Assembly: GCA_945874145.1 (NCBI GenBank)
Contig: CAMCFN010000001.1
Location: forward strand, 1-64,000
Direction: 5' to 3'
Source of the DNA: Akkermansia muciniphila
GTDB lineage: Bacteria > Verrucomicrobiota > Verrucomicrobiia > Limisphaerales > SXTU01
Length of the DNA: 64,000 nucleotides
Part shown: positions 3,268 to 49,646 of the stretch, one piece after another
Layout: every line of letters begins with the position of its first letter
How positions within the stretch are numbered: position 1 is the first letter of the stretch
Made by a program: the position numbers and the translations under genes
Notes under the pieces: model-generated
What the model saw: the letters and a program-made list of their open reading frames with translations, nothing else
Told to the model about the DNA's origin: nothing
Databases searched by the model: none

Positions 3268-4296
3268 ATGCGCCTCCCCTTGCCCCATCGCTTTGAAACG
3301 TGGACGTTTCCCTCCCGTGCCGGCGACTTGCAGTCGCCGTCGGTTACCGCCGGTCAGCGATCCCTGCCCACCTTCCTCATCCTGCTGCTTGTCTTGGGGT
3401 GGCTGGCGAGACCCAGTGGCGCAGCTCCGGCCCACTCGCCCGTCCCCAACCCTTACTTCCGCAGCAATGCCGAGCGCCCGTTCCTCACGCATTCGAGCAA
3501 GGGCGCGCAGTTCATCAACCGCAAGCTCGACGCGATTGTTCTGCCGGAAATCCACTTCGACGGCGTGCCGCTCAAGGATGTGGTGAAGCGCCTCGCCGAC
3601 GAAGCCAAACAGTTCGACCCTGAGAAGAAGGGACTGAACTTCCTCATCAACGACGTCAACCGCACCGCCCTCAACGCCGCGCCAGCCCTCGACCCGAATG
3701 GCAATCCCGTTCCAGCCGCGCAGCCTGTGCCGTTGAGCGAAACCCTTGTCCACCTGAGCCTGCCGTTGAAGGGCCTCACCTTGCGCGAAGCCTTGGACGC
3801 CATCTGCAAGACTTCGGAGGGCGGAGCTGGATTTGCCGTGGAGGAATACGCCGTGGCCTTCATTCCGCGCGGACCGGGCGCGTCCGCCCTCTTCTCCCGC
3901 ACTTTCCGCGTGAGCCCGGATGCCTTCATGCAGGGTCTGCAAGGGGTGGTGACCAGCCCGGTCCTCGGAGTGCAACCCGGTCAGCCAGCCGCTGCCAACG
4001 GGACTGCCGGACAACCTGCCGCGCCGGCCGGTGGCGTCGGTGCGGCCGGCCCCGTGCGGGCGGTCGTCCCGCCCGCTGTTCCGGCGATGCAGAACAACGC
4101 GAGTTCGGCCAACACGCTGGTCCGCCAGTTCTTCCAATCCGCCGGCGTCAGCGGCCTCAGCACGCCCAACTCCGGCACGCGGGTGCAGTTCAATCCGCAG
4201 ACCGGCGCGCTGGTGGTGCAGGGCACGGCGGCGGACTTGCGCGTCGTGGAGCAGGCGCTCGGAAAGCTCGGTGCCAATCCGCCGCTGCCGCCCTGA
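3268..4296 (+). CDS. Secretin N-domain (STN/N0-N1-like) protein lacking the secretin barrel
   Basis: Exported protein of 342 residues. A hydrophobic signal segment at about residues 31-50 (LPTFLILLLVLGWLARP) ends in an Ala-rich cleavage region. The mature part has two secretin-type ring-building modules: FDGVPLKDVVKRLADEAK followed by LKGLTLREALDAICK, and near the C-terminus VQFNPQTGALVVQGTAADL, the usual wording of N0/N1 domains. It ends there, without the secretin beta-barrel, so it may be a periplasmic ring or assembly partner in the GspE-type system upstream. The signal peptide has an unusually long N-region because a palindromic repeat (3314-3339) is inserted in frame and read as AGDLQSP. 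An Ala/Pro/Gly-rich linker occupies about residues 230-275. Confidence 0.7.
   Translation: MRLPLPHRFETWTFPSRAGDLQSPSVTAGQRSLPTFLILLLVLGWLARPSGAAPAHSPVPNPYFRSNAERPFLTHSSKGAQFINRKLDAIVLPEIHFDGVPLKDVVKRLADEAKQFDPEKKGLNFLINDVNRTALNAAPALDPNGNPVPAAQPVPLSETLVHLSLPLKGLTLREALDAICKTSEGGAGFAVEEYAVAFIPRGPGASALFSRTFRVSPDAFMQGLQGVVTSPVLGVQPGQPAAANGTAGQPAAPAGGVGAAGPVRAVVPPAVPAMQNNASSANTLVRQFFQSAGVSGLSTPNSGTRVQFNPQTGALVVQGTAADLRVVEQALGKLGANPPLPP
3314..3339 (+). repeat. DLQSP palindromic repeat, copy A
   Basis: Core palindrome at 3321-3339 with perfect 8-base arms CGGCGACT/AGTCGCCG around a TGC loop, preceded by the flank CCCGTGC. The whole 26 bases are identical to copy B at 42760-42785. It lies in frame in the N-region of the signal peptide of the secretin-domain protein and is translated as AGDLQSP. 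Confidence 0.85.
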
Positions 4297-4576: not shown

Positions 4577-5676
4577 AGCAGCGAAAGTTCCGGCGTGCGG
4601 AGCAACACGCCCGGTTGCGCGGCAGTCTGGCGGCAGGCGTCGAGGAGGCCGGCGGTGAGCAGACTGCGCGACGCGGGCCAAGGCTGCATGCCGGTGCGGA
4701 AGAAGTCCTCCAGCGTGGCAGCGAGCTGACTGTAATGCTCCTGCGCCGGGGCGGGCGCCCGGAAGAGTTGAGCGGAAAGGTTGCTTCCATCGGCGAGGCG
4801 CACGGCGAAGTTGAAATCCTCCACCACGCCATCCAGCACGAGCAACGCGGTGCGGACGCCGTCGGTGTGCTCCAGCAGCCAGCCGCGCGGGTTGCTCGCC
4901 AGCTTGGGCACGAGGCCGAGGCCGACCAAGTCCTGCGTGCGCCCGTCCAGAATCGCATCGCCCTGCGGCGAGTCGGAGCGAGACAGCGCGGCGGAGAGGA
5001 GCGGCCAGGACCACTCGCGCCGGTCGCCTGCACGCCAGAGCTCGCGACCCGCGAGAAACTTCACCTGCCGCACTCCGCGCTCGCCGCCGGCGCGGCGTTC
5101 GAGCACGGGCAGCAGGCCGTCGAGCGCGTGGAACTCGGCGAGAGGCGAGGGGCTTTGCACGACGATGAGCGCTTCGGCCACGACGGCGCGGTCCGGCAAG
5201 TCCACTTGTGGCAGCCGCCAAGTCGTCGGCAGCGTGGTGCCGGAGGCGAGCGCCACCTGACGGGCGGCAGCCAGTGTGGCGAGGGTGCGCGCAGCGGCGA
5301 GGTTGGTGGCGAGTGCGCCGAAGACGAAGCAGGCGGCCCCGCGCCTGGCGTGCATGAGCGCGGCGGTGAGTTGGGCCTCGGTGGGCGCGGCAGCGGCGGT
5401 GCGCGGCACGATGACGAGGGCGTCAGCGTCGCGCACGGCGGCGGGGAGGTCCGTGAGTTGCAGGCCGACGTCGGCCGCTCGCGCGCGGAGCAGGTCGGAC
5501 GCGGCGGACGGCGACTGCAAGTCGCCGCCACGGGCGGCGGTGACGCGGATGCCGTCGAGTTTATGGAAGCCCCCGGCGCGCCGATAGCCGAGAAGGAAAC
5601 GGTCGAGGAGTTGTTGCGCGGGCGACTGCAGCGCGAAGTCTTCGAGGACGAAGGCGATTTGGCGGAGCGGAGGCAT
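4573..5676 (-). CDS. Uncharacterised protein, paralogue of the adjacent Tat-exported protein
   Basis: Protein of 367 residues without a signal peptide. It shares an ordered series of motifs with the next gene (5841-7169): ASGTTLPTTWRLP against AGSSLPVTWRIP, then ERRAGGERGVRQVKF against ERRAGGEVGVRSVQAF, then an AALSRS/AALNRS pair. The two are therefore divergent paralogues arranged in the same direction. The N-terminal half looks like a Rossmann-type alternation but I see no nucleotide-binding motif. A palindromic repeat (5509-5534) is inserted in frame at about residues 48-56 and read as RGGDLQSP, where the paralogue has an ordinary helix. The stop overlaps the yacG start by ATGA. Function unknown. 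Confidence 0.75.
   Translation of the reverse strand: MPPLRQIAFVLEDFALQSPAQQLLDRFLLGYRRAGGFHKLDGIRVTAARGGDLQSPSAASDLLRARAADVGLQLTDLPAAVRDADALVIVPRTAAAAPTEAQLTAALMHARRGAACFVFGALATNLAAARTLATLAAARQVALASGTTLPTTWRLPQVDLPDRAVVAEALIVVQSPSPLAEFHALDGLLPVLERRAGGERGVRQVKFLAGRELWRAGDRREWSWPLLSAALSRSDSPQGDAILDGRTQDLVGLGLVPKLASNPRGWLLEHTDGVRTALLVLDGVVEDFNFAVRLADGSNLSAQLFRAPAPAQEHYSQLAATLEDFFRTGMQPWPASRSLLTAGLLDACRQTAAQPGVLLRTPELSLL
5509..5534 (-). repeat. DLQSP palindromic repeat, copy C
   Basis: On the minus strand this is the same 26-base element as copies A and B with one change in the flank (CCCGTGG instead of CCCGTGC). The 19-base palindromic core at 5509-5527 is identical. It lies inside a coding sequence and is read as GGDLQSP. 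Confidence 0.85.
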
Positions 5677-42527: not shown

Positions 42528-43490
42528 ATGTCCGCTTACGTGCAGTTGCTCGACGCTGTCATCAAGGACTTGGAGGATCGCAAGGCTGTCGGGGAGCGGT
42601 GCGTGGTGCTGGCACCCGAAACCTTGAACGTGCTGTCTGCGCCGCTCGCGCTCAGCCGCACTCACGCGGCGATTCAACCACGCCCAACAGCCATTCCTGC
42701 CCGCCCCGCCCCCGTCGCTGCGCCAGTCCGGACGGCAGCCGCACCTCTTGCCCCCGCGCCCCGTGCCGGCGACTTGCAGTCGCCGCCCGAGGCCAAGTCC
42801 GCAAACCCACCGGCACCCAGGCCACGGTCGGCGAATTTATCCCCCGCTGACAAAGCCAGTGCCTTGGCTGAACTTCGCAACCGTGCCCTTGCCTGCGAGC
42901 AATGTCCGCACCTTTTCACTTCGCGGAAATCCGTGGTCTTCGGCGTGGGCGACCTCAACGCCCAGCTCATGTTCGTCGGCGAAGCCCCGGGCGCGGATGA
43001 GGACAAACAGGGCGAGCCGTTCGTGGGCGCGGCAGGCCAGCTCCTCACGAAAATCATCACTGCGATGAGCCAAACCCGGCAGACCGTTTACATCGCCAAT
43101 GTTTTGAAGTGTCGGCCCGACACCCAGCCGAGCGAGCGGGGCAACCGCAAGCCGCGCCCGGGCGAGATGGCCACCTGCCTGCCGTATCTGCTGGAGCAGA
43201 TTCAGCTCATCCAGCCGCGCGTCATCGTCGCGCTCGGCGGCACGGCGGTGGAAGGCCTCTTCGGCATTGCCGAGGCCCGCATCACACGTCAGCGCGGAAA
43301 CTGGATGGACTTTCGTGGCACTCCGGTGATGCCCACCTTCCATCCCAGCTACGTGTTGCGAAGAGAAGCGGAAGAGGCCGACAACGGCCGCGCCACCAAG
43401 CGCCAAGTCTGGGAAGATATGCTGCAAGTCATGGAACGGCTGCAAATGCCCATCAGCGAGAAGCAGCGCGGGTTTTTTCTGAAGGGGTGA
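42528..43490 (+). CDS. Uracil-DNA glycosylase, family 4 (4Fe-4S type)
   Basis: Excises uracil from DNA. The 320 residues start at ATG 42528. Residues 1-45 form a helical lead, about 46-108 an Ala/Pro-rich linker, then the catalytic domain: the FeS cysteines C123, C126, C195 and C217, motif GEAPGADED (151-159), [12 protein letters not shown], and HPSY (272-275). The linker contains copy B of the DLQSP palindromic repeat (42760-42785, residues about 78-86), read in frame. The stop codon is immediately followed by an inverted-repeat element (43490-43624). Confidence 0.93.
42760..42785 (+). repeat. DLQSP palindromic repeat, copy B
   Basis: All 26 bases are identical to copy A (3314-3339), with the core at 42767-42785. 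In frame in the Pro/Ala linker of uracil-DNA glycosylase, read as RAGDLQSP. Confidence 0.88.
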
Positions 43491-43624
43491 ACCACGAATG
43501 GCCAACAATGCACACTAATGAAGCGCCGAAAATGGCTGCCGTCCGGCTTGCCGGAACCAAGCCGCTTGCGGACCCGCCTGCGTGCGCCGTGTTGATTTGT
43601 GTTCATTCGTGTCCATTCGTGGTT
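43490..43624. repeat. Inverted-repeat element with CACGAAT-type arms, second copy
   Basis: Arms 43490-43522 and 43592-43624 (33 bases) match as inverted copies at 27 of 33 positions and share the word AACCACGAATG with the element at 5681-5837. It runs from the last base of the udg stop codon to the first base of the next start codon, so it is the entire gene junction. Its interior also holds the small hairpin CCGGCTTGCCGG near 43548. Confidence 0.75.
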
Positions 43625-45321
43625 TGAAAAAGCCCGTCAAAATCGGCCTGTGGCTCCTCGGCTTCGCCGTGCTGGGGCTGCTGGGCTTGTGGCTGGAGCA
43701 CGAGCGGGCCAAGGCGCGACTGGCGGCGTTCAAGGCGCAACTCATCGCCAAGGGTGAGAAGCTCGCCATCGCGGACCACGTGCCGAAACTTCCGCCCGCA
43801 CTCTCGAATGCCGCGCCGGACTTCATCGCCGCTGCCGGCCGACTCACGGAGCTGAAGCCCGAACTTCAGCCGCAGCGGATGCGGCTTGTCGCACCGGGGA
43901 AGGCGCGGATGACATGGCAGCAGGTTGAGCTGCCCACCGAGAAGGAGCCGGACCTGTGGCCTTTCATCACGGCGCATGTGGAGGACAACCGCCTCCTGCT
44001 CGCCGAGATGGCCGCCGCGCTGGAGCGGCCGGAGATGGTGTTCAGTCTGGATTACTCGAAAGGGTTCAATCTGCTGCTGCCGCATCTGGCCAAGTTGAAG
44101 CAATCGGCGGTGGTCTTTGCCAATGCGACGTTAGTGGATTTGCGTGCCGACCAGCGCGCCAGCGCCTTTAAGAACCTGCTGGCTGGCGCGCGACTGACCC
44201 GCTTGCAGGAGGAGCCGTTGCTCATTTCCCAACTGGTGAGGATCGCATGTGGGCACATCGCGGCCCAAGCCACTTGGGAGGCTCTCCAGTTTCCCGGCTG
44301 GCAGGATGGCCAGTTGCTTGCCCTGCAAACGGAGTGGCAGGCGTGGGACTTGAAACGCGGCTGGCTCGCCTCGGCCAACATGGAGCGGGCCTACGGCTCG
44401 GACAGCTTCGCGCAGTGCAGGGGAAATCCGGCCATGTTCTCAATGCTGGACTGGAGCGGTAGCGGGCCGGGGCCAAGCGGCAAGTCCTTCTTCGCCGAGC
44501 TGTGGGATGATCCCGAAGAAGCCGCCAGACGCGCGCTCCATTTCACCGTCATGATGGGGTGGACGCTCTGGTTCTCCCACGACGACGAGCGCTGGACACT
44601 GGAGCACCATCAAATCTGGCTCGACGGCGCGCGGCAGGGGCTCAAGGCGGATGCTTTCGCCCCCGCCCAAAACCGAACCGTCGCCGCCTCGAAGCCATTT
44701 GAAACGCCGCCAATGACCATGGTGTTATCCCGCATGGCGTTGCCCGAGTTGAATCGATCTCATCAAAAGTTTGCCAGCTTTGAAACCATCCGCCGCCTGA
44801 CCATCACCGCCATCGCGCTGCACCGGCACCGGTTGAAGCACGGGAAGTTTCCGGAGTCGCTCGGCGCGCTGGTGCCGGAGTTCCTGGCCGAAGTGCCGCG
44901 TGATTTCATGGACGGCCAGCCGCTGCGCTACCAGCTCCAGCCGGACGGCCAGTTTCGCCTCTGGTCCGTGGGCGAGGATTTCAAGGACGACGGCGGCGAC
45001 CCAACGCCCGTGGGCGTGGTTAGCTCCACGGAACCGTATCAGTGGCTCAAAACCCGCGACTGGGTCTGGCCCCTGCCCGCCACCGAGGCGGAGGTCGCCG
45101 CTTACCACGCCGAACTGGCCGCCAAACGCGCCTTCGCCCTGCCCAAGCCGGCACCGTGTTCCAGTGCGTGTAAAGCGTGCGCACGTCGCGGGCGTTCACG
45201 CGGTAGATCAGCCCCACCATCGTCCGCTTCTGCCCGCCGATGTCCACGGCCACCTCGATTTCAAAGGTCGCGCTGCGCACCGCGAAACGTTGCGCGAAGG
45301 CTTGCGCCGCCTGCGGGTTGA
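43624..45321 (+). CDS. Uncharacterised membrane-anchored protein with GspG-like C-terminal motif; 3' end apparently altered
   Basis: Protein with one N-terminal membrane helix (about 5-24, IGLWLLGFAVLGLLGLWL), a long helical middle part, and a segment IALHRHRLKHGKFPESLGAL...PLRYQL...FRLWSVG that is widespread in Verrucomicrobiota and echoes the C-terminus of major pseudopilins. The start is probably TTG 43624; the frame also opens at GTG 43582, but that stretch is the arm of a repeat. Sequence is coherent to about 45147 (AELAAKRAFALPK). The last 57 codons, rich in Arg/Pro/Ser, are antisense to gspK and look like read-through after loss of the native stop. Function unknown. Confidence 0.7.
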   Translation: MKKPVKIGLWLLGFAVLGLLGLWLEHERAKARLAAFKAQLIAKGEKLAIADHVPKLPPALSNAAPDFIAAAGRLTELKPELQPQRMRLVAPGKARMTWQQVELPTEKEPDLWPFITAHVEDNRLLLAEMAAALERPEMVFSLDYSKGFNLLLPHLAKLKQSAVVFANATLVDLRADQRASAFKNLLAGARLTRLQEEPLLISQLVRIACGHIAAQATWEALQFPGWQDGQLLALQTEWQAWDLKRGWLASANMERAYGSDSFAQCRGNPAMFSMLDWSGSGPGPSGKSFFAELWDDPEEAARRALHFTVMMGWTLWFSHDDERWTLEHHQIWLDGARQGLKADAFAPAQNRTVAASKPFETPPMTMVLSRMALPELNRSHQKFASFETIRRLTITAIALHRHRLKHGKFPESLGALVPEFLAEVPRDFMDGQPLRYQLQPDGQFRLWSVGEDFKDDGGDPTPVGVVSSTEPYQWLKTRDWVWPLPATEAEVAAYHAELAAKRAFALPKPAPCSSACKACARRGRSRGRSAPPSSASARRCPRPPRFQRSRCAPRNVARRLAPPAG

Positions 45322-46420
45322 TGCCGGAAACGCCGCCGAGTTCCCCCGGATTGCGGAAGGGCGTGTCGTCGTCCGTGCCCTCCTGCCCATCCAGCCCTGC
45401 GCGGCGGCTGACGATGGCCTGCGCCGTGGGGCCGTCCACGCCCAGCGCCACTTGCAGCACCAAGGCGGACGCGGTGTTGAGATTCACCGTGCGCGCAGAA
45501 GTGGTGGTGAACATGTCCCGCAACGCATTGGTGTAAATTGGGCCGGTGTATTTGTTCACGGCCAAGGCCCGGCCGGTCACGCTGCGCGGCACATCGATCT
45601 GGCTTAGGTCAGTGCCGTAAAACAAATCAGGGGGCACACCGCGAATGAGCATCAATTCGCTCAAGTCATCGAGCGGGCCGTTCTTCACCTGATACGGCGG
45701 GTCCAGACCGAGATAGTAATCGCCCTCCGCACCGCTGGGCCGGGTTTGGTTGTCGGGATCAATCCAATCGAGAATCGAGTCCGATACTTGTCCAGCCTCC
45801 ACGGGGTCCACGCCACAGGTCTTGAGGGCTTGGGCGAGGAGCACGGGGTCGGCGAGGTTGATGTTCAGCTTCCGTTCACAATCCGTGATCTTCACGTTGA
45901 AGGTGCCGGAGCCCAGCCGCACGTCCGTGAGCGAGACGCCCGCCAGCGCTTCGTTCGTGCCCATCGGGCCGCCAGCCCACTTCTGGTTCAAGGCGTCGTA
46001 AGGCTCGTTTGGGATGTTCATGCTCTGGCCGACGACGAACCGCGCCAGCTCAACGCCTGAACGGCCCAGCCATTCAAACTCCGGGTCGTGCGCGGCATTG
46101 CGCGCGAGCGTGGTCTCGACTTTCACCGAGTAGGCAAAGCCACCCGCCAGCACCGCCAGCACCACGACGACGAGCATCACGATGATCAGCGCCACGCCTG
46201 ATTGAGAGGAGGGGCGCTGCCAAATCGCGTTGCGCACCGGTGGCACTGCGCCACGCGCCTTCTCCCTTCGCGGAGCGAGGGGAGAGGGTGGCCGCAGGCC
46301 GGATGAGGGGTGCGGCCACCATCGCCGCTGGCGAAACCCCTCACCGCCGCCCAGCACACCAAGCAGCACGTCGAGCGGCGACTGCAAATCGCGGGCACGG
46401 GGCTGGAGGAGCAGTTGCAT
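45047..46420 (-). CDS. gspK: GspK-like minor pseudopilin
   Basis: Protein of 457 residues from ATG 46420. The leader of 75 residues, unusually long, ends SQSG before VALIIVMLVVVVLAVLAG, the pseudopilin helix. The GspK body follows: SGVELARF, DPDNQTRPSGAEGDYY, the KNGPLDDLSELMLIRGV block that is the best family marker, and VNLNTASALVLQ. The leader contains two repeats: copy D of the DLQSP palindrome (46376-46401) and a 62-base hairpin element (46258-46319). The family-like sequence ends at LYTHWN (45158); the remaining 36 codons are antisense to the convergent gene. Last gene of gspFHIJK. Confidence 0.88.
   Translation of the reverse strand: MQLLLQPRARDLQSPLDVLLGVLGGGEGFRQRRWWPHPSSGLRPPSPLAPRREKARGAVPPVRNAIWQRPSSQSGVALIIVMLVVVVLAVLAGGFAYSVKVETTLARNAAHDPEFEWLGRSGVELARFVVGQSMNIPNEPYDALNQKWAGGPMGTNEALAGVSLTDVRLGSGTFNVKITDCERKLNINLADPVLLAQALKTCGVDPVEAGQVSDSILDWIDPDNQTRPSGAEGDYYLGLDPPYQVKNGPLDDLSELMLIRGVPPDLFYGTDLSQIDVPRSVTGRALAVNKYTGPIYTNALRDMFTTTSARTVNLNTASALVLQVALGVDGPTAQAIVSRRAGLDGQEGTDDDTPFRNPGELGGVSGINPQAAQAFAQRFAVRSATFEIEVAVDIGGQKRTMVGLIYRVNARDVRTLYTHWNTVPAWAGRRRVWRPVRRGKRRPPPRWRAGARPSRGF
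46258..46319. repeat. Double hairpin repeat in the gspK leader
   Basis: Two inverted repeats in series: TCTCCC/GGGAGA (46261-46266 and 46280-46285) and a perfect 9-base pair GTGGCCGCA/TGCGGCCAC (46288-46296 and 46311-46319). The minus strand reads in frame as PHPSSGLRPPSPLAPRRE. Similar 'CCCTCATCC...CTCTCCC' elements are, to my memory, dispersed in many environmental genomes. Confidence 0.65.
46376..46401 (-). repeat. DLQSP palindromic repeat, copy D (degenerate)
   Basis: Matches copy A at 24 of 26 positions. The two changes break the outer part of one arm of the palindrome but keep the reading frame, giving RARDLQSP at residues 8-15 of the GspK leader. Confidence 0.75.
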
Positions 46421-46430
46421 GACAACGTGA

Positions 46431-47297
46431 TTACCGGAGCTTGATCGGGGTCGGGGTTGGGGCGCGCATGATCCCGGGCGGGTTGGCCCCTTGGTTCCCC
46501 TGCAATTCACGCGGCACGCCCTGGCCACCGGGGGAAATCACGCTGCTGACCAGGACGGCAGGCCTAGCTCCCGCTGCCGTCCCACTGCCGAAGCCCAGCG
46601 TGACGCGCATGAGCTTGGGCACTTGATTGGTCTGGAGCCATTCGACATCCCAGTCCGCCAAATTCGTGCTCCAGAATTCGACGCTGAAGATGCCGAGGTT
46701 CGGCGTGAGCGTGAGCGTGTAGGCTTCCTCGATGGGTGAGTTCGTGGGCGTGAGGATGGAGGACTGGCGCAGCAGCAAGGCCGGCGAGCCGCTGTTGGTC
46801 CCCGGCTGCACGGCGAAGGTGACGCGGCGCAACGGCTGGTTGGGGAACATCCCGCTGCCGGGAAAGTCCTCGGGCAGATGCGCGACGAAACTCAGGAGCG
46901 CAAACTTCTCGTCGGTCGTGTCCGCGATGAACGAATACAACCTCGGGTTGCCGGCGTAGAGCACGGCGGCGGCGAGTGATTGCTCCAGTGTTTGCCGCGC
47001 GATCCGCATCCGCTGGACTTCATCGGCGGCGGTGTTGCCGACCTTCGCGGCGCGCAGCACGGCGGTCCAACTGGAATAAATGGCCGTCACCACGCTGCCG
47101 AGGATGGCCACGGCGATGAGCACCTCGATGAGAGTGAAGGCGCGGCGCGCGGCCAGGCGCGGCGCGCGGCGTTCACGCCGCAGCAAGCTGGGCAGGAAAA
47201 GTGGGGTCGGGAGTCCATTGCCACCCGCACGTTTCTGCGTGTTCAAGGCTGCGCTCCAGGCCCTCAACGACCGAGCAACTTCAGAGTTCGCGATCAA
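46431..47297 (-). CDS. gspJ: GspJ-like minor pseudopilin
   Basis: Protein of 288 residues. I place the start at TTG 47297 because it overlaps the gspI stop as TTGA and has a perfect GGAGG five bases upstream; the open frame itself runs much further but only as antisense-type sequence within gspI. The leader of 53 residues ends AARRA before FTLIEVLIAVAILGSVVTAIYSSW. The body (DEVQRMRIARQTLEQSLAAAV, FVAHLPEDFPG, TLTPNLGIFSVEFW) fits GspJ. The leader holds the palindrome read as RRERRAP (47166-47181). Ala replaces the usual Gly at -1. Confidence 0.83.
   Translation of the reverse strand: MIANSEVARSLRAWSAALNTQKRAGGNGLPTPLFLPSLLRRERRAPRLAARRAFTLIEVLIAVAILGSVVTAIYSSWTAVLRAAKVGNTAADEVQRMRIARQTLEQSLAAAVLYAGNPRLYSFIADTTDEKFALLSFVAHLPEDFPGSGMFPNQPLRRVTFAVQPGTNSGSPALLLRQSSILTPTNSPIEEAYTLTLTPNLGIFSVEFWSTNLADWDVEWLQTNQVPKLMRVTLGFGSGTAAGARPAVLVSSVISPGGQGVPRELQGNQGANPPGIMRAPTPTPIKLR
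47166..47181. repeat. GCGGCGTGAACGCCGC palindrome, copy 2 (in gspJ leader)
   Basis: Exact reverse complement of the 16-base core at 18188-18203 (7-base arms, 2-base loop). On the minus strand it is in frame and read as RRERRAP, ending 27 bases before the codon of the processed Phe. Confidence 0.7.
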
Positions 47298-47779
47298 AAC
47301 CGCCTCCCCACCGTGGCGCCCATCGTGGACTCGGGGCGATACAGGAAAATGGAGAGCCGGCTCTCCGCCGGAAATCGCCCACCCGCCGAAGCGTCCTGCA
47401 CGATGAAGTCCACTTGGAACAAACCGTTGGTGGCCACCATGGTGATGCTGCGATTCCATGAGACGCCGGGATACAGGTTGCCGAAGTCCCCCGCGTCGCC
47501 GCCTTCCTCCAGCTTGTTGGTCAGGGACAGCTCCGACGCGAGGCTGCCGATGTCCACCGCCGGCTTCTGGAGGCGCTGCACGTTCTTCAAGTTGTGCGAG
47601 ACCAGCTCCAGCACCGAGAAGACGCACATGAAGAAGATGCCCACCGCGATCATGACTTCCAGCAGGGTGAAGGCAGCAGTGGGTGACAGGTGACGGGAGG
47701 CAGGTGAACAGCGGCGCAACGTGGCTGGCACGGCGTCACCTGCCACTTGCCACCTGTCACGTGTCACCATCGTCCTCAT
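47294..47779 (-). CDS. gspI: GspI-like minor pseudopilin
   Basis: Protein of 161 residues. The leader of 35 residues ends SPTAA before FTLLEVMIAVGIFFMCVFSVLELV. The body is short (SLTNKLEEGGDAGDFGNLYPG, then VDFIVQDASAGG), in line with GspI. Start ATG 47779 overlaps the gspH stop by ATGA and the stop overlaps the gspJ start by TTGA. Most of the leader (residues about 4-33, VTRDRWQVAGDAV and on) is encoded by a GTGAC-type inverted-repeat element (47681-47768), so the original start or leader may have been replaced. Confidence 0.82.
   Translation of the reverse strand: MRTMVTRDRWQVAGDAVPATLRRCSPASRHLSPTAAFTLLEVMIAVGIFFMCVFSVLELVSHNLKNVQRLQKPAVDIGSLASELSLTNKLEEGGDAGDFGNLYPGVSWNRSITMVATNGLFQVDFIVQDASAGGRFPAESRLSIFLYRPESTMGATVGRRF
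47681..47768. repeat. GTGAC-type inverted-repeat element in gspI leader
   Basis: Left arm 47681-47707 and right arm 47736-47768 are imperfect inverted copies built of GTGAC, GTGGC and GGTGA words. In the minus strand the whole element is open in the gspI frame and stops 8 bases short of the ATG. Same family as 34478-34571. Confidence 0.72.
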
Positions 47780-48357
47780 CGCATCACCTCGTAGTCCGCG
47801 CGGGCGGTGACCGGGTCGAGCGTGATCTTGCGCAGTTCGCCGTGCAGCGAGCGCAGCACCACGGTGAACTCGTCGCTGGTGCCGTTGGGACGGAAACGCA
47901 CGCCGACCGCTTCGGCGTCCTTCAGCAATTGAAAGTTGATCGCCAATTCCTCAATGCCCACCTCGGTCGGCAGCTTGACGGAAAATACCGCGTGCCCGTC
48001 TCCCGCCTTGGGCTCCGGACGCGCGCCGCCGCTGCTGGGGCTGGGACTCGCTCCCGTGGGGGCCACATCGAAAGTGTAGTCCTGCGGGCGGATGCGAAGT
48101 TCCACCATGGAGCCGCGCAAAATGGCCTGCGCGCGCGCCGTCGCGCAGGCTTCCATCACGCCCTGCAACGCGGTGCGCATGGGCTGTTTGTTCTGGGCGG
48201 AAACGAAGGCGGGAATGGAAACGGACATCAAGATGGCGATCAACCCGACCACGATCATGATCTCGATGAGAGTGAAGGCATGGGCGGCGGCCAAGGAGCT
48301 TCGGCTCCGCGTCTCGGGGTCGCTTGCCACCCGCCAATTGTCACCGGCCAGCTTCAT
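47776..48357 (-). CDS. GspH/GspG-like pseudopilin
   Basis: Protein of 193 residues. The leader (27 residues) ends AAAHA before FTLIEIMIVVGLIAILMSVSIPAF, the classical pseudopilin helix. The soluble part (MEACATARAQAILRGSMVELRIRPQ; later FTVVLRSLHGELRKITLDPVTA) is GspH-like. There is an Ala/Pro/Ser linker at about 90-113. Overlaps gspF (ATGA) upstream and gspI (ATGA) downstream. The leader encodes GDNWRVASD, a degenerate relative of the GTGAC repeat found in gspI, plus a GGAGC-TTCG-GCTCC hairpin (48295-48308). Confidence 0.82.
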   Translation of the reverse strand: MKLAGDNWRVASDPETRSRSSLAAAHAFTLIEIMIVVGLIAILMSVSIPAFVSAQNKQPMRTALQGVMEACATARAQAILRGSMVELRIRPQDYTFDVAPTGASPSPSSGGARPEPKAGDGHAVFSVKLPTEVGIEELAINFQLLKDAEAVGVRFRPNGTSDEFTVVLRSLHGELRKITLDPVTARADYEVMR

Positions 48358-49646
48358 CGTCCCATGCTGGTTCCGATGTTCGAGGTGATCGAGAACATCG
48401 CCTGCAACACGCTCAACAGCAGGAAGCCCACGCCCAGCGCGATGCCGACGATCATCACCGGCTCGATGAGGTTGGTCATGACGCGGAGGCCGATGTTGAG
48501 TTCGCTCTCGTAGGTGTCGGCCACGTTGCGGAGCGCACCGGGCACATCGCCGGTGTCCTCGCCGATCTTGATGAGGTCGATCATGAGCTGCGGGAAGACT
48601 TTGCTGCGCGCCAGCGGCTGCGCGATGGTTTTGCCGTCCGTCACCGCCTCGCGAGTTTGGGCGATGGCCTGCTTGAGGACGACATTGGGCACCACCTGCT
48701 CGGTGATCTTCAGCGCGGTGAGCACGGAGACGCCGTTCTGCATGAGCGTGGAGAGCGTGCGGGCGAACTGGCCGAACAGGTGCAGCCGCACGACGCGACC
48801 GACGATGGGGGCGTTGAGCTTCCAGCGGTCGAGCGTGTGCCGGCCGAGGTCGCTCGCCCGGAAGCGCAGGAACACGATGCTGCCCGCCACCAGCACGACG
48901 CCCATCGTCAGCAGATACACGGGGTCGCTGAAGAAGTTGCTGATGCCGATGAGCAGCCGTGTGGAGGCGGGTAGATCCACCTTCATGTCCGCGAAGATGC
49001 TGAGAAACTTCGGCAGCATGTAGGTCATGAAAAAGAACACGATGACCAGCCCCGTCAGCATCACAAACGCCGGGTAGATCAAGGCCGAGCTGAATTTCTG
49101 CTGCACCTCCGCGAACCGCTCGTAGTGCTCCGCCAGCCGCTTGAGCACCTCCTGCAGCGAGCCGCTCTGCTCGCCGGCGCGCACCATGTTCACATACATG
49201 TCCGAGAAGACGACCGGCTGCTTGGCCATCGCGTCGGACAGGCTGCGCCCCTCGGTGACATCGTTGCGGAGCTGCTTGCTGACAGAGGACGGGATGCCCT
49301 TGGTTTCCAAGTGCGTCATGCTGTTGAGCGCGACGGTGAGGGGCATGCCGGACTTGAGCAGGTTGGAAAACTGCTGGGTGAAGGTGGCCAACTCCTGGAG
49401 CTTGGGCTTGCTCGGTCGCAAGGCCGCCTCGCGCAGCGTGGGAGGCAGCAAGGCGATCAGGGAGAAGCTTTTGCCGGCCGCGGCTCCAGGCGTGCTGGCG
49501 ACCCCGCCCTTCGCCGCCTCGACCGCCACGGGGAACAATCCCATGCGGTCGATCTGCGCCAGCGCGGCGCTGCGGTCGTTGCCCTCGAGCACGCCGGTGA
49601 CGGTCTCGCCGGAGCGTTTGCGGGCCTTGTAGGTGAATTGCGCCAT
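48354..49646 (-). CDS. gspF: GspF-type inner membrane platform protein
   Basis: Protein of 430 residues, with the two T2SSF domains: TFTQQFSNLLKSGMPL...RAGEQSGSLQEVLKRL in the first half and GQFARTLSTLMQNGVSVLTALKI...KIGEDTGDVPGALRNVADTYE in the second. Three to four membrane helices. The N-terminus MAQFTYKARKRSGETVTGVLEG is the family signature. First gene of the gspF-H-I-J-K operon, all coupled by 4-base overlaps except the 10-base gap before gspK. A second, divergent GspF/PilC is encoded at 52378. Confidence 0.94.
   Translation of the reverse strand: MAQFTYKARKRSGETVTGVLEGNDRSAALAQIDRMGLFPVAVEAAKGGVASTPGAAAGKSFSLIALLPPTLREAALRPSKPKLQELATFTQQFSNLLKSGMPLTVALNSMTHLETKGIPSSVSKQLRNDVTEGRSLSDAMAKQPVVFSDMYVNMVRAGEQSGSLQEVLKRLAEHYERFAEVQQKFSSALIYPAFVMLTGLVIVFFFMTYMLPKFLSIFADMKVDLPASTRLLIGISNFFSDPVYLLTMGVVLVAGSIVFLRFRASDLGRHTLDRWKLNAPIVGRVVRLHLFGQFARTLSTLMQNGVSVLTALKITEQVVPNVVLKQAIAQTREAVTDGKTIAQPLARSKVFPQLMIDLIKIGEDTGDVPGALRNVADTYESELNIGLRVMTNLIEPVMIVGIALGVGFLLLSVLQAMFSITSNIGTSMGR

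Follow-up and report, generated by a model that had tools for sequence, protein, structure and literature searches.

What allows four consecutive genes to begin with four different repeats is the question raised by the gsp operon of the 64,000-nucleotide stretch analysed here (the window; contig CAMCFN010000001.1), which derives from a metagenome-assembled genome of Limisphaerales type (Verrucomicrobiota) with a 4.58 Mb assembly that is 82% complete. Downstream of gspF, the pseudopilin genes gspH, gspI, gspJ and gspK follow one another in that order, and the leader of each, the N-terminal segment preceding the prepilin motif, holds repeats of its own. All were found as described in the initial annotation, which had also given leader lengths of 27, 35, 53 and 75 residues; those of GspH, GspJ and GspK were borne out, while that of GspI is 36. 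The explanation favoured here, with a probability of about 0.65, is that hairpin repeats dispersed through the genome survive at the junctions of coupled genes, with a disposable leader as the only segment there able to absorb them.

The repeats of the window leaders are members of dispersed families. Across the whole assembly, the palindrome GCGGCGTGAACGCCGC of the gspJ leader has 19 exact copies and 45 within one mismatch (1 for the reversed pattern, the control for dispersal), the DLQSP palindrome GGCGACTTGCAGTCGCC, of which the gspK leader holds a degenerate copy, has 22 exact copies and 40 with a mismatch allowed (control, 0), and CCTCATCCGGCCTGCGGCCACC, a 22-base half of the gspK inverted repeat, has 17 copies within three mismatches (control, 1). 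The in-frame DLQSP palindrome also occurs in the gspK leaders of three related genomes (G008, G009 and G010), and a DSQSP version in that of G002, the nearest relative of the window genome. Both occurrences of GTGRCARGTGRCARGTGRC in the assembly overlap one another inside the gspI leader, where the strict three-unit GTGAC pattern, present in 73 places across the 11 genomes of the genus, has its single match in the window assembly. A chance origin of the repeats was ruled out by shuffle, Markov and reversed-pattern controls. Compared with shuffles, the window gspI leader folds significantly (z -4.1), and a significant fold is absent from the leaders of gspH (z -0.3), gspJ (+0.6) and gspK (-1.8).

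In the 10 further genomes of the genus (congeners), whose gsp operons were read, the same leaders are long and many contain two inverted arrays: the ATG is closely followed by the 5' arm, and the 3' arm closely precedes the prepilin motif. The arms are composed of 7-base units that differ by genome (GTGACAR in G001, G004 and G005; CAGCAGT and CAGAAGT types in G007 to G010), and other hairpins replace the heptad arrays in some leaders. In congeneric gspH, gspI and gspJ leaders of at least 60 nucleotides, positions seven bases apart match at a rate of 0.491 versus 0.267 after shuffling (z=31; all other lags, z<=2.9), and the same lag stands out in 83 leaders from other genera (z=14.5). A hairpin score of at least 10 is reached by 12 of 32 congeneric leaders (0.6 expected) and by 22 of the 83 others (1.65 expected). 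The gspI leader of G004 forms a near-perfect 34-bp stem (z -11), and z values of about -8 were obtained for gspI and gspJ of G001 and for gspK of G001 and G005, the gspK stems being members of the GGAGCGCGGCCTTCAGGCCGC family, similar to the palindrome of the window gspJ leader. Repeat-free leaders also exist (gspH of G003, with 12 residues, and gspK of G003 and G004). Covariation was set aside as proof of selected stems, given that heptad arms pair in several registers (shifts between G001 and G004).

The genes themselves have the characteristics of pseudopilins. GspH, GspI, GspJ and GspK each belong to their family and possess the prepilin motif (Gly or Ala before F-T-L-x-E, then a hydrophobic helix), with Ala as the last leader residue in GspH, GspI and GspJ and Gly in GspK. 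In profile searches, GspK scored above the NCBIfam T2SS_GspK cut-off, and the other three scored at or below cut-off against N_methyl and the TIGR gspH, gspI and gspJ models. Glu5 is absent from GspK, as is expected of this subunit. Matches to the prepilin N-terminal motif number 59 in G000 and 67 in G058 (a genome from another family of the order), mostly in stand-alone genes, and in roughly half of the matches the residue preceding the cleavage site is Ala and not Gly. Prepilin leaders are known to vary in length and to end in Gly or Ala (PMC10191384), and their removal by the prepilin peptidase is established for the pseudopilin family. Judging from their sequences, the leaders of the window GspH to GspK are presumably cleaved in this way.

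Translation of the long leaders could be assessed through the spacers at the junctions. The ATGA overlap is conserved across relatives, and the TTGA overlap at the gspJ start is also used by G002. Long spacers at ATGA overlaps have a length of 2 mod 3 in 27 of 28 cases in the genus (p 2e-12) and in 45 of 48 in other genera. In every one of these 27 and 45 spacers the predicted frame is open, compared with 13 and 4 of 27 (congeners) and 27 and 28 of 45 (other genera) for the two alternative frames. Leader length, by contrast, takes 12 distinct values in the congeners and 22 elsewhere, and congeneric leaders are 0.30-0.32 identical (shuffled baseline, 0.19) versus 0.78-0.81 for the mature proteins; between the window genome and G002, the values are 0.15-0.37 and 0.84-0.90. 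Because the leaders vary in length and sequence but stay open and in frame, translation of the gspH, gspI and gspJ leaders is supported, so the long leaders look real, with start sites predicted by comparison among relatives. The pattern is that of a segment apparently held open and in frame and otherwise nearly free. Of the two observations that the initial annotation had named as contrary to its proposal, true starts downstream of the repeats are ruled out for gspH, gspI and gspJ by the frame tests, gspK being the least certain, and neither the length nor the sequence of the leaders proved to be conserved.

The repeats are also concentrated in these leaders, an enrichment that the initial annotation had put forward as a check. 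Lag-7 arrays (criterion 17/21) are present in 20 of 33 congeneric gspH, gspI and gspJ leaders, compared with 13 in a 464 kb sample of the window genome and 26 in a 400 kb sample of G005, which corresponds to ~5.7 array-bearing leaders per kb versus 0.03-0.07 arrays per kb across the genome. Leader counts within the genus overstate independence, because orthologous insertions are not separate events; the replicate in G058 (the genome of locus L272) is free of this weakness. Five of the 14 CCAATTK loci in G058 coincide with leaders of prepilin genes lying inside operons, three operons in all (probability ~4e-12 with uniform sites and 8e-7 with each gene an equal target, 5000 genes assumed), and lag-7 arrays occur in 9 of 24 operon-internal prepilin leaders versus 0 of 17 others (p=0.005, with one gspJ reassigned as operonic by hand). 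Leaders were proposed in the initial annotation to be neutral landing sites, and in-frame survival and fast divergence fit that proposal. Disposability by itself is nevertheless insufficient, because stand-alone prepilin genes, whose leaders are cleaved too, carry almost no arrays; what matters is the combination of a disposable leader with an operon-internal junction at which stop and start overlap.

In a wider set of 80 named loci, mostly from Limisphaerales or Verrucomicrobia subdivision 3, independent lineages have unrelated hairpins in the leaders, including CCAATTK units in gspH, gspI and gspJ of L272 and GCTCCT hexamers in gspI and gspJ of L287, and further leader units are TTCAAAG and AACACCA in L267 and GCGGRAA in L076. 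Leaders within one genome share a mean of 10.5 8-mers, compared with 1.75 for the same gene across genomes. The anatomy of the repeats, their dispersal, frame and enrichment, and the rapid divergence of the leaders are direct results of the computation.

A mechanism can be proposed in which Limisphaerales genomes carry dispersed hairpins, with arms of tandem 7-base units (GTGACAR, CAGCAGT, CCAATTK and others), together with short palindromes resembling repetitive extragenic palindromes (REPs), and these repeats would build up where genes of an operon adjoin and at a small number of tolerant intragenic sites. The gspH, gspI and gspJ junctions offer no free spacer, because each start sits on the stop of the preceding gene, and the DNA from the start codon to the first mature codon is leader. 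The prepilin peptidase would remove that leader, and repeats could therefore persist as in-frame leader extensions. Selection would maintain the overlapping start, the open frame, the 2 mod 3 spacer length and the final Ala or Gly, and the remaining leader sequence would drift or be swapped for another repeat. Cleavage, fitness neutrality and the copying of repeats between loci are the steps that we infer. The leaders would then represent a clean case of translated DNA that is free to change, required to be open and in frame while the peptide is discarded, and would show where a tightly packed genome absorbs repetitive DNA without harm to its proteins; the spread of repeats through coding sequence via disposable peptides becomes a directly testable question. 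More tentatively, the heptad-armed hairpins might be a new class of mobile or copied element across one Verrucomicrobiota order, in which units differ by species and sites stay, coupled junctions are favoured and pseudopilin leaders are one preferred coding refuge. This would point to a poorly described class of repeats with a 7-base period and site-conserved unit swapping, even at sites as constrained as miaB.

Hairpins could instead be maintained for a function, with a stem between the overlapping start and the mature region tuning re-initiation or elongation and setting the pseudopilin ratios, at no cost to the protein in a cleaved leader. Their recurrence at an equal place in consecutive genes of several lineages with unrelated sequences would fit such a role, as would the confinement of repeats to operon-internal leaders in G058 and the similar hairpins that fill other intercistronic gaps ~7-9 nt from both genes. 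However, the structure is not kept (the window gspH and gspJ leaders lack a significant stem), many relatives have plain leaders of ~9-15 residues, and the same repeats occur mid-gene, in miaB, in a glycosyltransferase gene and in others, where a role of this type makes no sense. The tuning of translation, offered as the alternative in the initial annotation, gains no support here and is judged unlikely; the data do not call for a regulatory role, and in some species the stems have degraded.

Two further explanations concern the translation and the origin of the repeats. The repeats could be 5' untranslated or intercistronic DNA, with true starts downstream and long leaders an effect of annotation, and downstream GTG or TTG codons are indeed present in gspI (leaving 20 or 16 residues), gspJ (16) and gspK (14-17), in line with a published caution about REPs at predicted N-termini (PMC3733652). 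The conserved ATGA overlap and the 2 mod 3 spacers that are consistently open in the predicted frame only, in congeners and other genera alike, argue against this, and the downstream TTG of gspJ (47186, 16-residue leader) still includes the palindrome. The ATG of gspK lies 10 nt past the gspJ stop, so a downstream start is possible for that gene, yet as an account of the four leaders the explanation is highly improbable. Arrays might also form in place, through replication slippage in steps of 7 bases together with template switching, and simply be tolerated by the leaders, an idea that would accommodate the difference in units between species at one site. Identical units nonetheless recur at numerous unrelated loci within a genome and in several species, leaders of one genome share units in a way that independent slippage would not yield, and the short palindromes of gspJ and gspK are dispersed families, all of which make a purely local origin improbable.

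Several points weigh against the persistence of dispersed repeats in disposable leaders at coupled junctions. In the window genome, the contrast between operonic and stand-alone prepilin genes has the same direction as in G058 and is weak (2/25 vs 0/29 at a criterion of 12/14; 4/25 vs 1/29 at 11/14). No mobilising enzyme was identified in a search limited to the Y1 type, and genes other than those of the gsp operon were delimited with a simple codon model. Neutrality is unproven, and the repeated gain of hairpins at the same junctions in separate lineages could reflect selection.

Several known repeat systems share part of this pattern. Rickettsia palindromic elements (RPEs) are in-frame palindromes in many unrelated genes (PMC10969869), and the repeats described here are similar in their preferred frame and recurring peptide (GDLQSP and DKWQVTGD...LSPVTCHLSP), but differ in their tandem 7-base arms, in unit types that vary by species at each site, in a Verrucomicrobiota host and in clustering in cleaved pseudopilin leaders at coupled genes; the resemblance appears to be one of kind and not of descent. 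The verrucomicrobium Opitutus terrae has many REPs of the GTAG and CGTC superfamilies, often within genes (PMC3733652). The DLQSP and GCGGCGTGAACGCCGC elements are likewise short dispersed palindromes near gene ends, sometimes within open reading frames (ORFs), in the same phylum, whereas the heptad-armed elements are unlike REPs, and a GTAG or CGTC terminal tag is absent from the consensus of 21 DLQSP and 18 GCGGCG copies. A transposase of the Y1 type associated with REPs (RAYT, REP-associated tyrosine transposase) was found at E<=1e-5 in 7 of the 11 genomes of the genus and not in the 82% complete window genome; with no transposase found there and no tags, RAYT-driven REPs appear an unlikely source. 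Enterobacterial repetitive intergenic consensus (ERIC) and miniature inverted-repeat transposable element (MITE)-like repeats are also imperfect palindromes in the gaps of polycistronic operons (PMC10969869), from which the present repeats differ in having variable heptad arms, no fixed consensus and frequent in-frame coding copies. The repeat-free leaders and miaB genes of relatives are too diverged for target duplications to be read. In Beggiatoaceae, TAACTGA heptamers form direct repeats near starts (PMC4679880), which are comparable in their tandem 7-base units near start codons but differ from the inverted arm pairs, many unit types and translated copies found here. In the open-access literature searched, neither heptad-armed hairpins whose units swap nor a clustering of them in cleaved leaders of coupled pseudopilins was found described; relative to that literature, in-frame palindromes are known from RPEs and REPs, and the heptad arms and leader concentration are what is new.

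Outside the leaders, GTGAC copies fill operon gaps, often taking up the space that begins ~9 nt past one stop codon and ends ~7 nt ahead of the following start codon, and are found in frame inside several genes as DKWQVTGD...LSPxTxHLSP; recurring 'VTCHLSPVTCHL'-type peptides in databases may in part be translated repeats, which is a caution for annotation. Avoidance of stops specific to leaders, suggested by TGG codons in the GTGAC arms, was dropped, as the consensus GTGACAAGTGGCAGGTGAC with identical TGG is usual in non-coding copies too. In miaB and in a glycosyltransferase gene (names assigned from the sequences themselves), one loop contains in-frame heptad-hairpin inserts that differ between congeners at the same position (L195-L212, L123, L134, L144); in four congeners the miaB loop is short and free of inserts. 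Of the 22 exact DLQSP copies, 9 lie within ORFs, all in frame 0 although every core frame is open, giving, as with RPEs, a multicopy palindrome that lies in frame within unrelated genes and favours one reading frame. For the GCGGCG palindrome, the gspJ leader is the only one of 18 examined copies in an ORF.

Features of the gsp operon, its leaders and their repeats (window positions; aa, amino acids)
Feature	Position	Strand	Remark
gspF	48354..49646	-	Pfam T2SSF match; stop overlaps gspH start (ATGA)
gspH-like pseudopilin gene	47776..48357	-	N_methyl 20.7 bits; gspH model below cut-off
gspH leader MKLAGDNWRVASDPETRSRSSLAAAHA, 27 aa	48277..48357	-	predicted to be translated (ATGA overlap, frame conservation)
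Degenerate GTGAC heptad units, gspH leader	48319..48345	-	clear GTGAC arms at equivalent place in congeners
Small hairpin GGAGC-CGAA-GCTCC, gspH leader	48295..48308	-	
gspI-like pseudopilin gene	47294..47779	-	profile matches
gspI leader, 36 aa	47672..47779	-	ATGA overlap with gspH stop
5' arm, GTGAC heptad array GTGACACGTGACAGGTGGCAAGTGGCAGGTGAC, gspI leader	47735..47767	-	sole strict three-unit match in assembly
3' arm, inverted GTGAC heptads, gspI leader	47676..47709	-	ends beside mature start
gspJ-like pseudopilin gene	46431..47297	-	TTG start overlaps gspI stop (TTGA)
gspJ leader, 53 aa	47139..47297	-	
GCGGCGTGAACGCCGC palindrome, gspJ leader	47166..47181	-	only coding-region copy among 18 exact copies examined
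gspK	45047..46420	-	homology to relatives stops near 45161; frame continues to 45047
gspK leader, 75 aa given ATG 46420 as start	46196..46420	-	least certain of the four starts
DLQSP palindrome copy (degenerate), gspK leader	46378..46392	-	in frame, RDLQSP
Inverted repeat GGTGGCCGCA..TGCGGCCACC, gspK leader	46287..46320	-	part of dispersed repeat
Second hairpin, gspK leader	46259..46286	-	
DLQSP palindrome, linker of uracil-DNA-glycosylase-like gene	42768..42784	+	in frame; gene named from sequence

Further observations concern the operon and its surroundings. At the distal end of gspK (45047-45321), relatives end in LYTHWK and a stop, and the window frame extends ~37 residues further into the 3' part of ORF 43582-45321, which is convergent; loss of both stop codons by deletion would give this picture. 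Several gsp contigs of Limisphaerales type in the wider set (L213, L217, L218, L253, L255 and L264) carry the public record titles Proteobacteria, Klebsiella pneumoniae or Akkermansia muciniphila, which look wrong. Two more exact in-frame DLQSP palindromes are present in unrelated genes of the window (3322-3338 and 5510-5526), and an intergenic CACGAAT/ATTCGTG inverted repeat whose 30-base arms enclose a loop of 75 bases (43490-43624) looks like a further dispersed family. Large and apparently paralogous genes in L107 (4071-4176) and L116 (16202-16306) have CAGTATT-type heptad arrays with inverted partners at an equal relative site, which suggests shared or recurrent insertion.

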